Positions 16,339-20,551 of a stretch of DNA of 64,000 bases are shown piece after piece (positions within the stretch are counted from its first letter, which is position 1; every line of letters begins with the position of its first letter). The notes beneath the pieces are model-generated. The model worked only from the letters and a program-made list of their open reading frames with translations. It searched no databases and was not told the DNA's origin. The position numbers and the translations under genes are program-made. Source of the DNA: Acinetobacter pullicarnis. GTDB lineage: Bacteria > Pseudomonadota > Gammaproteobacteria > Pseudomonadales > Moraxellaceae. The stretch spans positions 3,348,001 through 3,412,000 of the forward strand of contig NZ_VCMZ01000001.1 in the NCBI RefSeq assembly GCF_006352475.1, written 5' to 3'.

Positions 16339-16743
16339 TTAGTTATCACTGACAAAAGCAATATCATTTAAGCCTGCTTCACTGGCACTTGCCATTACTT
16401 GCGCAACCGTATCATAACGCGCATCTTTATCGGCACGAAGTTGGATCGCAGGTTTTAGCGCTGACTGTGATTCTTCTTTAAACCGCGTTTGCAGCTCTTC
16501 TAAAGTAATCGTTTTGGTTCCCCAAGAGATTTCACCTTGTGCATTAATATTAATGGTGACTTCTTTTGCTGGCGGCTCAACAATATCCGCAGTGGTTTTT
16601 GGTAAGGTTAATGGTATTGATGGGTTAGCAACAGTTGCTGTGACCAAGAAAATGATCATCAATACCAACATAATGTCGATCAGCGGAATGAGATTCATCT
16701 CATTCATGCCAGTGTCGTTGTCTTCACCCAATTGAAAAGCCAT
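16339..16743 (-). CDS. exbD: Biopolymer transport protein ExbD
   Basis: ExbD works with ExbB as the proton-driven motor that energises TonB. The 134-residue product has a short cytoplasmic start, one membrane segment with the essential Asp (NLIPLIDIMLVLMIIFLV) and a periplasmic domain ending LNDIAFVSDN. Its ATG overlaps the exbB stop by one base (TAATG), so translation is probably coupled. It is the last gene of the leftward tonB-exbB-exbD operon. Confidence 0.95.
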   Translation of the reverse strand: MAFQLGEDNDTGMNEMNLIPLIDIMLVLMIIFLVTATVANPSIPLTLPKTTADIVEPPAKEVTININAQGEISWGTKTITLEELQTRFKEESQSALKPAIQLRADKDARYDTVAQVMASASEAGLNDIAFVSDN

Positions 16744-17366
16744 TAAGCTTGACCTCCAACGAGTCCTTTTTGTGACTGTTCAACGGGCACAGAAGCCGGC
16801 GTTGACTCTTGCTGTAACATGGTGTCGATCAATAGACCATGAGCATGATCTTGCAAATCATTGGTGAGCGTACGATTAAAACGGACACAAATGTTATAGG
16901 CAATCACCGCAGGAATCGCGACCGCCAAACCCAGTCCAGTCATAATCAGTGCTTCACCGACAGGCGTTGCAACCTGAGCAAGACCAGCTTGACCACTTTG
17001 ACCAACAGCAACCAAGGCGTGAAAAATGCCCCACACGGTACCAAACAACCCGACAAAGGGTGCTAAAGAAGCAATGGTACCCAGTACAGAAACACCTTTT
17101 TCAGCAGATGATTTCTCAACTGAGATTTGACGAAGTAAAGCTTGTTCTGCAACAGCTTTACGTTGATCAAAGCTCAATGGGACAAATTTTGCCTTGAGTT
17201 GATTCATTGCCTTACTCAGCTGTGCTTGCGCTTGTTGTTTCAGCTGGCGCGTACCGAGCAAACGTAAGACAAAAATGGTCCATGTCGCAATCGACATCGC
17301 CAAAAGTATAAAATACAGCGTCTTACTAATCGCGTCTGCATGTTGCCAATAGACTGAAAAGTTCAT
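16743..17366 (-). CDS. exbB: Biopolymer transport protein ExbB
   Basis: ExbB forms the pentameric stator channel of the TonB motor. The 207-residue product has three membrane segments, with the diagnostic ASLAPFVGLFGTVWGIFHAL in the second and VGEALIMTGLGLAVAIPAV in the third. ATG 17366 is preceded by AGGATTTTG. It lies 27 bp downstream of tonB and overlaps exbD. A TolQ assignment is less likely because tonB, not tolA, is the partner gene. Confidence 0.95.
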   Translation of the reverse strand: MNFSVYWQHADAISKTLYFILLAMSIATWTIFVLRLLGTRQLKQQAQAQLSKAMNQLKAKFVPLSFDQRKAVAEQALLRQISVEKSSAEKGVSVLGTIASLAPFVGLFGTVWGIFHALVAVGQSGQAGLAQVATPVGEALIMTGLGLAVAIPAVIAYNICVRFNRTLTNDLQDHAHGLLIDTMLQQESTPASVPVEQSQKGLVGGQA

Positions 17367-17393: not shown

Positions 17394-18224
17394 TTATCTA
17401 CGTTTTTCGTTAGTAGAAACACTAAAATTTTGCCTTACAACAAAGGGAACACTGACGCCATTCTCTTTATATGGTTTAAATTTAGCAGCATTGGTTTGCT
17501 TTACAACATAACTGTCGAGTGAGCTAAAACCACTTCCTTGCAGAAGCTTAACGCTCATGACTTTACCGGCACCATCTGAAGTAATTTCGAGTTTAATCGT
17601 TTTAACCCCATCTTCTGGCTTCAACCATTTAACCACTTGCGCTGCATCAATAATAGGACGTCGTGACCAAGAAACATCACCCTCAGACACCATCCGAGGT
17701 TTCTTCGAATTTTCATCTTGTTCGCGCTTCTGACGATCTCGTTCGTCTTGTTCGCGCTTCTGACGATCTCGTTCATCTTGTTCGCGCTTTTGACGATCAC
17801 GCTCATCTTGTTCACGCTTCTGACGATCCCGCTCTAAGCGGTCTTTTTCCAAGCGATCTTTTTCCAGTTTTTGCTTTTCCAAAGTATCATCTTGAAAAAT
17901 TACTTTTTCCTTCGTTTTCTCATTTTTTTGAGCAATAACTTTGGGTTTGACCACTGGAATCGGTTCAGGTTTTGGTTCGACTTTTGGCTTAATTGGTTTG
18001 GTTGGTGGCGGAGGTGGTGGTGGCGGTACAAATTCTTCTTTAATTTTTACCAACTTTACTTTGATTGGCTTTTTCTCAATCGGTTTGAGTTCAGCCGTTT
18101 TAATCTGACTTACACCCCAGAGTACCCCGATGTGCCCAACTGCCACAGCCATTAAGGCAATGATAATTTTTTTCTTCATATCGGGTTGCGGTCGTTGCAA
18201 ATTTGGTGTGGAAGACTGATGCAT
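17394..18224 (-). CDS. tonB: Energy transducer TonB
   Basis: TonB carries proton-motive energy to outer-membrane receptors for siderophores and other ligands. The 276-residue product has a cytoplasmic leader, one membrane helix (KKKIIIALMAVAVGHIGVLWG), a Pro/Lys-rich periplasmic spacer with eight consecutive prolines and KPKVEPKPEP, a charged repeat region (four copies of a DRQKREQDER unit) and a C-terminal domain with LKPEDGVKTIKLEITSDGAGKV and NAAKFKPYKENG. The start is ATG 18224; an internal ATG at 18179 (MKKKI) is possible. A Fur-like box overlaps its promoter and ISAba1 lies 150 bp upstream. Confidence 0.93.
   Translation of the reverse strand: MHQSSTPNLQRPQPDMKKKIIIALMAVAVGHIGVLWGVSQIKTAELKPIEKKPIKVKLVKIKEEFVPPPPPPPPTKPIKPKVEPKPEPIPVVKPKVIAQKNEKTKEKVIFQDDTLEKQKLEKDRLEKDRLERDRQKREQDERDRQKREQDERDRQKREQDERDRQKREQDENSKKPRMVSEGDVSWSRRPIIDAAQVVKWLKPEDGVKTIKLEITSDGAGKVMSVKLLQGSGFSSLDSYVVKQTNAAKFKPYKENGVSVPFVVRQNFSVSTNEKRR
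17713..17832. repeat. Four 30-bp tandem repeats inside tonB
   Basis: Four near-identical 30-bp units begin at 17713, 17743, 17773 and 17803 and differ at only a few positions. They encode four 10-residue DRQKREQDER-type units in the TonB spacer. In-frame repeats of this kind can change copy number by slippage without breaking the gene. Confidence 0.93.
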
Positions 18225-18312
18225 ATAAACACTTGGACCTTAAACTGAGTTGAGACGTAAAGCATAGCTTTTACAAATCATGCTCATCGGTTGGAACAAT
18301 TAAAGTGGCTTA

Positions 18313-18342
18313 ATCATAAATGAGAAGTGTTTTCATTTGCAA
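18313..18342 (-). promoter_or_regulatory. Native tonB promoter
   Basis: Read on the minus strand, a -35 TTGCAA (18342-18337), an 18-bp spacer and a -10 TATGAT (18318-18313) lie about 90 bp before the tonB start. The spacer is almost entirely covered by the Fur-like inverted repeat. Confidence 0.55.
18318..18338. promoter_or_regulatory. Fur box over the tonB promoter
   Basis: The sequence AAATGAGAA-GTG-TTTTCATTT is an inverted repeat with one mismatch per arm. Its core TGAGAAGTGTTTTCA matches the 7-1-7 Fur motif TGATAATCATTATCA at most positions. It sits between the -35 and -10 of the tonB promoter, the expected place for iron-dependent repression. Confidence 0.6.
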
Positions 18343-18364
18343 CTGTTATTTATATGTTTTTTAA

Positions 18365-18373
18365 CTTTCTTAC
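18365..18373 (+). repeat. Left 9-bp target-site duplication of ISAba1
   Basis: CTTTCTTAC directly abuts the left inverted repeat and recurs exactly at the right end (19554-19562). An intact duplication shows that the element transposed here as a unit, probably recently. Confidence 0.95.
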
Positions 18374-18405
18374 CTCTGTACACGACAAAAATAGATAACT
18401 CATTG

Positions 18406-18433
18406 AAATAATGTCACAATAATTGTTTTCTAA
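18406..18433 (-). promoter_or_regulatory. ISAba1 outward promoter toward tonB
   Basis: On the minus strand, -35 TTAGAA (18433-18428), a 16-bp spacer and -10 TTATTT (18411-18406) reproduce the described ISAba1 outward promoter, which is known to raise expression of adjacent genes such as ampC and blaOXA. Transcription would leave the element through its left end and run into tonB-exbB-exbD. Confidence 0.85.
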
Positions 18434-18444
18434 CGACGAATACT

Positions 18445-19535
18445 ATGACACATCTCAATGAGTTATATCTTATCTTAAACAAATATCTAAAATGGAACAA
18501 GTCACATTTAAAGTGCTTTGCGCTCATCATGCTTGTGATTATTTTAAAGCAAACATGTAATCTTTCTTCTGCATCTAAAGCCTTGCCCATCAAGTGCTTA
18601 CCACAATCATTTTATCGACGTATGCAGCGCTTCTTTGCAGGTCAGTATTTCGATTATCGTCAAATTTCTCGGTTGATTTTCAATATATTTTCATTCGACA
18701 AAGTGCAACTGACTTTAGATAGAACCAATTGGAAATGGGGAAAACGAAATATTAATATCCTGATGCTCGCGATCGTTTATCGTGGAATAGCGATACCTAT
18801 CCTTTGGACATTGCTTAATAAACGTGGAAATTCAGATACGAAAGAGCGCATTGCTTTGATTCAACGCTTTATCTCCATTTTTGGTAAAGACCGTATTGTG
18901 AATGTGTTCGCAGACAGAGAGTTTATCGGTGAGCAGTGGTTTACATGGTTAATTGAACAAGACATCAACTTCTGCATTCGTGTTAAAAAAACTTCATTGT
19001 CACCAATCATTTAGGAAAGAATCATAAAATTAGTGATTTATTTCGCCATCTTAAAGTTGGTCAAATTGAATGTCGTAAACGACGGATTTTGGTTGGTCGG
19101 GTGAAACTATATATAAGTGCACTACAGTTAGAAAATGGAGAGCTTTTACTCGTCGTTTCTCCTCAGTTTAATGCCAATGCTATTCAGGATTATGCATTAC
19201 GCTGGGAAATTGAAACCTTATTCAGTTGTCTCAAAGGACGCGGGTTTAATCTTGAAAATACGCGCTTGACAGACCCTAGACGAGTGAAAAAATTGATTGC
19301 GGTGTTAGCTATAAGCTTCTGTTGGTGTTACTTAACGGGTGAATGGCAACATGATCAAAAAAAAGCGATAAAAATAAAGAAGCATGGACGACTCTCAATG
19401 AGTTTATTTCGCTATGGTTTAGACTATGTTCAAATGGCGATTCAGCGTTTAATTGGTTTTGGGAAAAAAGAAGAGTTTAAGGAAATTTTGGCAATTTTAA
19501 GAAGGCAGAATCCTGATAGGATAAGGGTTCTGTGA
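18445..19535 (+). CDS. tnpA: ISAba1 transposase (two frames joined by -1 frameshift)
   Basis: The first frame (18445-19014) gives 189 residues; the second continues to 19535. They join if the ribosome slips back one base on seven A residues at 18985-18991, giving KKNFIVTNHLGKNHK across the junction and a protein of about 363 residues. DDE landmarks are TLDRTNWKWG, FADREFIGEQWF and the IS4 signature Y-x2-R-x3-E-x6-K, seen as YALRWEIETLFSCLK. Two-frame organisation is usual for this element, so I do not treat it as a pseudogene. Confidence 0.9.
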
Positions 19536-19553
19536 AATTTGTCGTGTACAGAG

Positions 19554-19562
19554 CTTTCTTAC
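19554..19562 (+). repeat. Right 9-bp target-site duplication of ISAba1
   Basis: CTTTCTTAC, identical to 18365-18373, immediately follows the right inverted repeat. Confidence 0.95.
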
Positions 19563-19564
19563 AT

Positions 19565-19597
19565 AAAAAAAATGAGGAATACACAGGGCATCCTCAT
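19565..19597 (-). terminator. Rho-independent terminator of purU
   Basis: On the minus strand the stem ATGAGGA / TCCTCAT with a 12-base loop is followed by a run of eight or more T residues. It lies 27 bp after the purU stop and ends two bases from the IS target duplication, so the insertion left it intact. Confidence 0.85.
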
Positions 19598-19623
19598 CCT
19601 TATTTTATTCAATCAGTGTTTAC

Positions 19624-20490
19624 TTATTGGAAAACAACTGTTTTATTTCCATCCACAATAATTCGGTCTTCGAGGTGCCATCTAACTGCACGTGCCAGTA
19701 CATTACGCTCAACATCTTGTCCCAATTCACGTAACTGATCGACAGTAAAGTCGTGATTTACACGCTCTACATCTTGTTCAATGATTGGTCCCTGATCCAA
19801 ATCAGCTGTAACATAGTGCGCAGTTGCACCAATCAACTTCACCCCTTTCTCATAAGCTTGCTTATATGGATTTGCCCCCACAAAAGCCGGCAAGAATGAA
19901 TGGTGAATGTTGATGACTTTCATCGGCCATCTTGCCACAAAGTCTTCACTGAGCACTTGCATATAACGCGCAAGCACTAGCAAGTCATTGCCTTGCATCA
20001 ATTCGTCAATTTTGGCGTAGGCTTCAACTTTATTGTCTTTATTTACAGGTACAACAATAAAAGGAATACCGAAGTTTTCCACAGACTCTTTTAAATCTTC
20101 ATGATTTGAAATCACTTGGGTAATTTCACAAGGTAGACCGCCACGTGCATGACGCCACAGTAACTCAAGTAAAGCATGATCCACTCTAGAGACCAAAACC
20201 CCGACTTTTTTAACATCGCTAACCAAGGTTAAACGCCACTGCATGTCGTAGCGTTCAGCGACGTTGGCAGCAAAAGTTTGCAGCAGGGTTTCTTTGCGAG
20301 ACTGTAGATGCTCAAGTTCAAACTCAACACGCATAAAGTAGCGTCCACCCTGAGCTTCAGTTGCGTATTGATCAAGTGCGGTAATGTTGGCACCTTGATG
20401 ATACAAAAAGCTCGATACGGCTTGCACGATGCCTGGCTTGTCTTCACAAGTAATCAATAACCGTGCGGTGTTGGCGGTCGTCATGTTCAT
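19624..20490 (-). CDS. purU: Formyltetrahydrofolate deformylase
   Basis: PurU hydrolyses 10-formyl-tetrahydrofolate to formate and tetrahydrofolate, balancing one-carbon pools and supplying formate for purine synthesis. The 288-residue product has an N-terminal ACT domain (RLLITCEDKPGIVQAVSSFLYHQGANI) and a formyltransferase-fold domain. The latter contains SNHEDLKESVENFGIPF, the catalytic HHSFLPAFVGANPY and TAHYVTADLDQGPIIEQDV. I start at ATG 20490; ATG 20484 and GTG 20505 are alternatives, none with a strong ribosome site. Confidence 0.95.
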   Translation of the reverse strand: MNMTTANTARLLITCEDKPGIVQAVSSFLYHQGANITALDQYATEAQGGRYFMRVEFELEHLQSRKETLLQTFAANVAERYDMQWRLTLVSDVKKVGVLVSRVDHALLELLWRHARGGLPCEITQVISNHEDLKESVENFGIPFIVVPVNKDNKVEAYAKIDELMQGNDLLVLARYMQVLSEDFVARWPMKVINIHHSFLPAFVGANPYKQAYEKGVKLIGATAHYVTADLDQGPIIEQDVERVNHDFTVDQLRELGQDVERNVLARAVRWHLEDRIIVDGNKTVVFQ

Positions 20491-20551
20491 GTCGATTGAA
20501 ATCACTTATTCATAAAAACTGGTCAACATTCTAAAGCTTTTTGCAAAGCTT

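Follow-up and report, generated by a model that had tools for sequence, protein, structure and literature searches.

The window (the whole stretch of 64,000 nucleotides analysed here) contains on its minus strand three genes in the order tonB-exbB-exbD, the products of which carry the domains TonB_C, MotA_ExbB and ExbD, respectively. tonB (17394..18224) is recognized by PF03544 TonB_C (26.7 bits, cut-off 24.6) and by TIGR01352 (31.2 bits, cut-off 27.1). The next two genes, exbB (16743..17366; PF01618, 103 bits) and exbD (16339..16743; PF02472, 112.2 bits), are named by context, because the NCBIfam models for TolQ (117.5 bits, cut-off 221), TolR (98.6, cut-off 127.3), ExbB (95.8, cut-off 206.2) and ExbD (78.2, cut-off 216) all score below their cut-offs. 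Within tonB, a tandem array at 17712-17828 (30-bp unit, 3.9 copies, 91% matches) gives the TonB linker a charged stretch that is repeated. The upstream neighbour, purU (19624..20505, minus strand; TIGR00655 PurU, 387.6 bits, cut-off 285.95), reads toward tonB, and its nearest match among 192 other loci is 82.2% identical. It is followed by a likely intrinsic terminator (19566..19600, minus strand), a hairpin of -11.3 kcal/mol with a T run, which was not picked up by a generic terminator scan.

Between purU and tonB lies an intact insertion sequence of 1180 bp (18374..19553, plus strand) with 16-bp inverted ends and a 9-bp target duplication, CTTTCTTAC, present on the left at 18365..18373 and on the right at 19554..19562. 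An IS4-type DDE transposase, directed away from tonB, is encoded in two open reading frames, both of which match DDE_Tnp_1 above its cut-off; with NF033591 the first scores 152 bits (cut-off 152) and the second 134.7 bits, below the cut-off. As a member of the IS4 family, ISAba1 measures about 1180 bp and has inverted ends of 16 bp and a 9-bp target duplication, to which the element beside tonB conforms. It is identical to a copy on another contig of the same genome (C3), which itself gives a 100% match to plasmid NZ_CP030755.1, annotated as ISAba1 family, and it can therefore be regarded as ISAba1. The left end of the element is separated from tonB, whose ATG is at 18224 on the minus strand, by 149 bp (18225-18373), in agreement with the preliminary description, in which an intact ISAba1 had been placed with its left end about 150 bp upstream of tonB. 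The likely purU terminator remains between purU and the element, and the insertion has left both this terminator and the native tonB promoter undamaged.

At the left end of the element, an outward promoter (P_out) reads toward tonB (18406..18433, minus strand), with TTAGAA at 18433-18428 and TTATTT at 18411-18406 separated by 16 bp. TTAGAA-N16-TTATTT is printed as the ISAba1 promoter in PMC9161033, and the hexamers and spacing are those of the copy beside tonB; a review (PMC9330008) gives the spacer of the ISAba1 promoter as 17N. The earlier claim of an ISAba1 outward promoter aimed at tonB thus holds as regards the hexamers, their place at the left end and their direction. P_out is a poor match to the sigma-70 consensus, and its hexamers were not listed by a generic promoter scan, which was uninformative with 5 pairs found versus 4.6 expected from shuffles; the native tonB promoter was listed. 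The same scan returned on the same strand a pair, GTGACA-N18-TATTTT (18417-18388), that overlaps P_out and is within chance expectation. Elsewhere, ISAba1 upstream of the adeABC pump has been reported to give a 25-fold reporter increase (PMC9161033), and in RNA-seq of clinical isolates ISAba1 upstream insertions have been named as the likely cause of overexpression (PMC5340874).

The native tonB promoter, TTGCAA-N18-TATGAT (18313..18342, minus strand), lies between the element and tonB and is indicated by its sequence, by the generic scan and by conservation in the genus. Its TTGCAA (18342-18337) and TATGAT (18318-18313) are separated by 18 bp, and the spacer is filled by an inverted repeat, AATGAAAACACTTCTCATT (18337-18319). 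A symmetric Fur weight matrix was built from the A. baumannii sites in Table 1 of PMC3055841 (21 distinct of 22). With this matrix, a 25-mer inside the native promoter (18316..18340) scores 17.1 bits, the best of the 63,976 positions in the window, the next being 9.1 bits, and no position reaches 17.1 bits in 2 million bases of first-order Markov background. Under a slightly different background, the score is 16.2 bits. When each of the 21 published sites is scored with itself left out, the scores range from 14.3 to 28.9 bits; since only two of them fall below the tonB site, the operator, which is convincing as judged from its sequence, belongs at the weak end of the published range. ISAba1 itself has no Fur-like site, its best matrix score being -1.6 bits. 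The preliminary description had reported a native promoter with a Fur-like inverted repeat in its spacer, and both the rank of the site and its genus-wide presence bear this out.

The genome encodes a Fur-family protein (148.9 bits). A looser Fur pattern occurs at eight places in the whole genome, tonB included; scores of 18.3-26.7 bits are reached at five of the seven places other than tonB, and the remaining two score 10.1 and 1.4. Four of the five higher-scoring sites stand before a gene for a sigma-70-type factor and three genes for TonB-dependent receptors, and the fifth has an aconitase-family gene and a short open reading frame as neighbours. For two other TonB-like loci, one of which is below the Pfam cut-off, the surrounding 3.1-kb regions (about 1.5 kb to each side) contain no Fur-like site, their best scores being 6.7 and 4.6 bits. 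Microarrays of A. baumannii show strong overexpression of the cluster A1S_0452-0454 in low iron; a Fur box is predicted for this cluster, which is absent from the 22 sites in Table 1 (PMC3055841). According to PMC3859900, only tonB3 of the three TonB systems of A. baumannii is iron-induced. Gene order and an upstream Fur operator are common to the locus described here, tonB3-exbB3-exbD3 and A1S_0452-0454, and the two further TonB-like loci lacking a nearby Fur-like site add to the likeness to the tonB3 case; it is from gene order and regulation, rather than from sequence comparison, that orthology is proposed.

The region was compared within the genus using a set of 175 genomes, one per species, of which 172, the window genome included, matched the tonB query and 3 did not. 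The 149 genomes examined (of 174 others) were those among the matches listed, a further 22 with a match being left out. In 147 of the 149, the tonB promoter core has purU on its upstream side at a distance of 83-270 bp, with the purU end extrapolated from the alignment; in the other 2, purU was not found. In the window, the corresponding gap minus the element and one duplication is 91 bp, a typical value. The preliminary description had proposed a search of other genomes for insertion sequences at this site; ISAba1 was found there in none of the 149 other Acinetobacter genomes. Within the set examined, the insertion is thus peculiar to this strain or its species. As for ISAba1-like DNA anywhere in the genome, 38 of the 175 have it at E <= 1e-100, a count for which only two candidates were scored in each. 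A literature search gave no report of ISAba1 or any other insertion sequence upstream of tonB, nor of ISAba1 in connection with Fur regulation, and the available portions of PMC10483418 and PMC8945497 contain nothing on an insertion sequence upstream of tonB.

ISAba1 is abundant in this genome, with 19 full copies and one fragment, and 9-bp duplications flank 18 of the 19, the exception being the copy on C3. Compared with the copy beside tonB, the remaining 17 chromosomal copies each show 11 or 12 differences, one of them at 18417, which is in the spacer of P_out outside the hexamers. Identical to the C3 copy, the tonB copy thus belongs to a separate lineage, so that, by sequence, two ISAba1 lineages coexist in the genome; that of the tonB copy was possibly delivered by the plasmid-like contig C3. 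In 8 of the 19 copies, including that at tonB, P_out faces an open reading frame of at least 100 amino acids whose most upstream start is within 350 bp. The other targets include a ClpB-like AAA protein, an amino acid permease, PPK2, a DUF4238 protein, an AAA protein and two with no Pfam match. That tonB is one target among these eight argues against reading selection into its insertion. As to individual loci, P_out of the copy at L009 (1-1371) is 128 nt upstream of the ClpB-like gene, and the distances are 263 nt to the permease (L013) and 285 nt to PPK2 (L015); at L012 P_out faces a frame for an MgtE-type transporter that is open at the border of the element. Several other copies abut open reading frames cut at the border.

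The tonB control region has a 28-bp core, GTTGCAAATGAAAACACTTCTCATTTAT (18343-18316), that is nearly constant in the genus; it comprises the -35 hexamer and the Fur box and extends into the beginning of the -10 hexamer. The core is exact in 140 of the 149 other genomes, with one change in 7 and two changes in 2, and 25 of its 28 columns are invariant. Across the 149 loci, the Fur 25-mer takes 4 forms, 141 of the loci having exactly that of the window, and in the 29 closest loci it has a single form. As a control, we took the Fur site in front of one gene for a TonB-dependent receptor in the window genome and followed it in the best 29 of 135 matching genomes. Of these 29 loci, 24 retain a Fur-like site scoring 10 bits or more and 5 do not, and the 24 loci have 16 distinct 25-mers sharing 14-20 of 25 bases with that of the window genome. 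This control is a rough one based on a single gene, whose relatives are 45-74% identical in protein and may include some paralogues. Double duty as promoter and operator accounts for part of the conservation of the tonB core; spacer bases at odds with the Fur consensus are frozen as well.

A further conserved stretch follows at the start of the native leader (18281..18306, minus strand), where 14 of the 26 columns of a block at 18306-18281 are conserved at 0.96 or more over 134 distinct leaders. A structured leader RNA was considered and set aside: RNAalifold on 135 distinct leaders, including that of the window, gave short, often-broken helices with no convincing consensus, and a search of the tonB leader against Rfam found no match up to E = 1. 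The block could be a regulator site, a small-RNA site or a short reading frame, the last being judged unlikely because its ATG, kept in 111 of the 134 distinct other leaders, is replaced by ATA, ATC, ACG or another triplet in 23.

How might the element affect the operon? We favour, at a probability of roughly 0.55, a model in which a single transposition of ISAba1 has added basal, Fur-independent transcription of tonB-exbB-exbD over an intact, Fur-repressed native promoter. The outline would be as follows: one ISAba1 transposed into the purU-tonB gap, which would have set P_out upstream of the undisturbed native promoter. In low iron, both promoters would be able to fire. In high iron, Fur would occupy the native promoter, and RNA polymerase from P_out, with a predicted start near 18399, would continue across the operator about 60 bp downstream, giving a basal Fur-independent tonB-exbB-exbD transcript that would retain the whole native leader. 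We infer that P_out may be active at tonB, that its polymerase may read through bound Fur and that TonB may be raised as a result. The physiological effect would probably be modest, because the receptor genes carry Fur sites of their own.

Several other readings have to be weighed against this model. The element might be a neutral passenger, with a P_out that yields little transcript or makes no difference of consequence, a reading that we hold to be rather doubtful though of some weight. A genome with 19 full copies, 18 of them with 9-bp duplications, 8 facing open reading frames and several lying against cut frames would readily supply such a passenger, and the site beside tonB, between a likely terminator and a promoter, is one where insertion should be tolerated. 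Against it, P_out increases expression in several published settings, and nothing but the native promoter, operator included, and the leader stands between P_out and tonB.

The operator at 18316-18340 also invites the idea, raised in the preliminary description, that bound Fur acts as a roadblock to polymerase about 60 bp past the predicted start of P_out, so that both promoters would be iron-regulated. The operator is indeed wholly inside the P_out transcription unit; however, the tonB site scores below 19 of the 21 published sites scored with themselves left out, so that a strong roadblock is not favoured, and we consider this outcome improbable. Least probable of all, and given very little weight, is that the insertion lowers tonB output, either because P_out interferes with the native promoter or because the element separates that promoter from upstream elements. 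P_out transcription would run directly across the native promoter, and only 30 bp of native DNA (18373-18344) are left upstream of the 28-bp core. But these 30 bp are poorly conserved (mean ungapped match to the window of 0.46 over 149 loci), which makes a conserved upstream element there unlikely. Addition of a promoter that bypasses Fur, as suggested in the preliminary description, is the part of its proposal that the anatomy favours, through the orientation, the published hexamers, the lack of a Fur-like site in the element, the intact operator and the presence of a gene for a Fur-family protein.

The other part of that proposal, an altered entry of siderophore-type antibiotics, fares less well. 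In iron-rich medium the receptors would stay repressed, because their genes have Fur sites of their own. Cefiderocol susceptibility testing uses iron-poor medium, so that the native tonB promoter should already be on. In one study of cefiderocol-heteroresistant derivatives of A. baumannii, the tonB3 and exbD transcripts were raised, not lowered (PMC10380697). Given the receptor Fur sites and these raised transcripts, it is unlikely that the action of siderophore antibiotics is changed to any large extent.

As a type of event, insertion of a promoter borne by an insertion sequence is well known, and the tonB case is a new example of it. ISAba1 upstream of ampC/blaADC, of blaOXA genes and of adeABC in A. 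baumannii agrees with the present case in the element, its orientation, its hexamers and its 5' position. Unlike those targets, the operon facing the element here serves energy transduction, is regulated by iron and retains a regulated promoter of its own. The host is probably another Acinetobacter species, since its purU comes no closer than 82.2% to any of the 192 other loci, and near relatives of A. baumannii would be expected within the genus set. The same element and operon meet again in cefiderocol-resistant A. baumannii mutants with ISAba1 at the C-terminal end of tonB; there, according to a review (PMC10150277), the insertion is inside tonB and is reported to reduce the expression of exbB and exbD. 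In contrast, the insertion described here is upstream of tonB, is oriented to raise expression and leaves the coding genes intact.

The frozen tonB operator may be more interesting than the insertion itself and is the part most worth following. It raises the question of why one Fur site is nearly invariant across the genus while that of a receptor gene drifts. One speculative answer, which we think unlikely, is that the tonB operator is a set-point of iron uptake frozen at sub-maximal affinity for Fur, and that the bypass by ISAba1 would have been retained where constant TonB pays. As for the insertion, if P_out is active, a mobile promoter would free the energy supply for siderophore uptake from repression by iron, and the locus would be a natural case of P_out acting beyond the usual drug-resistance genes.
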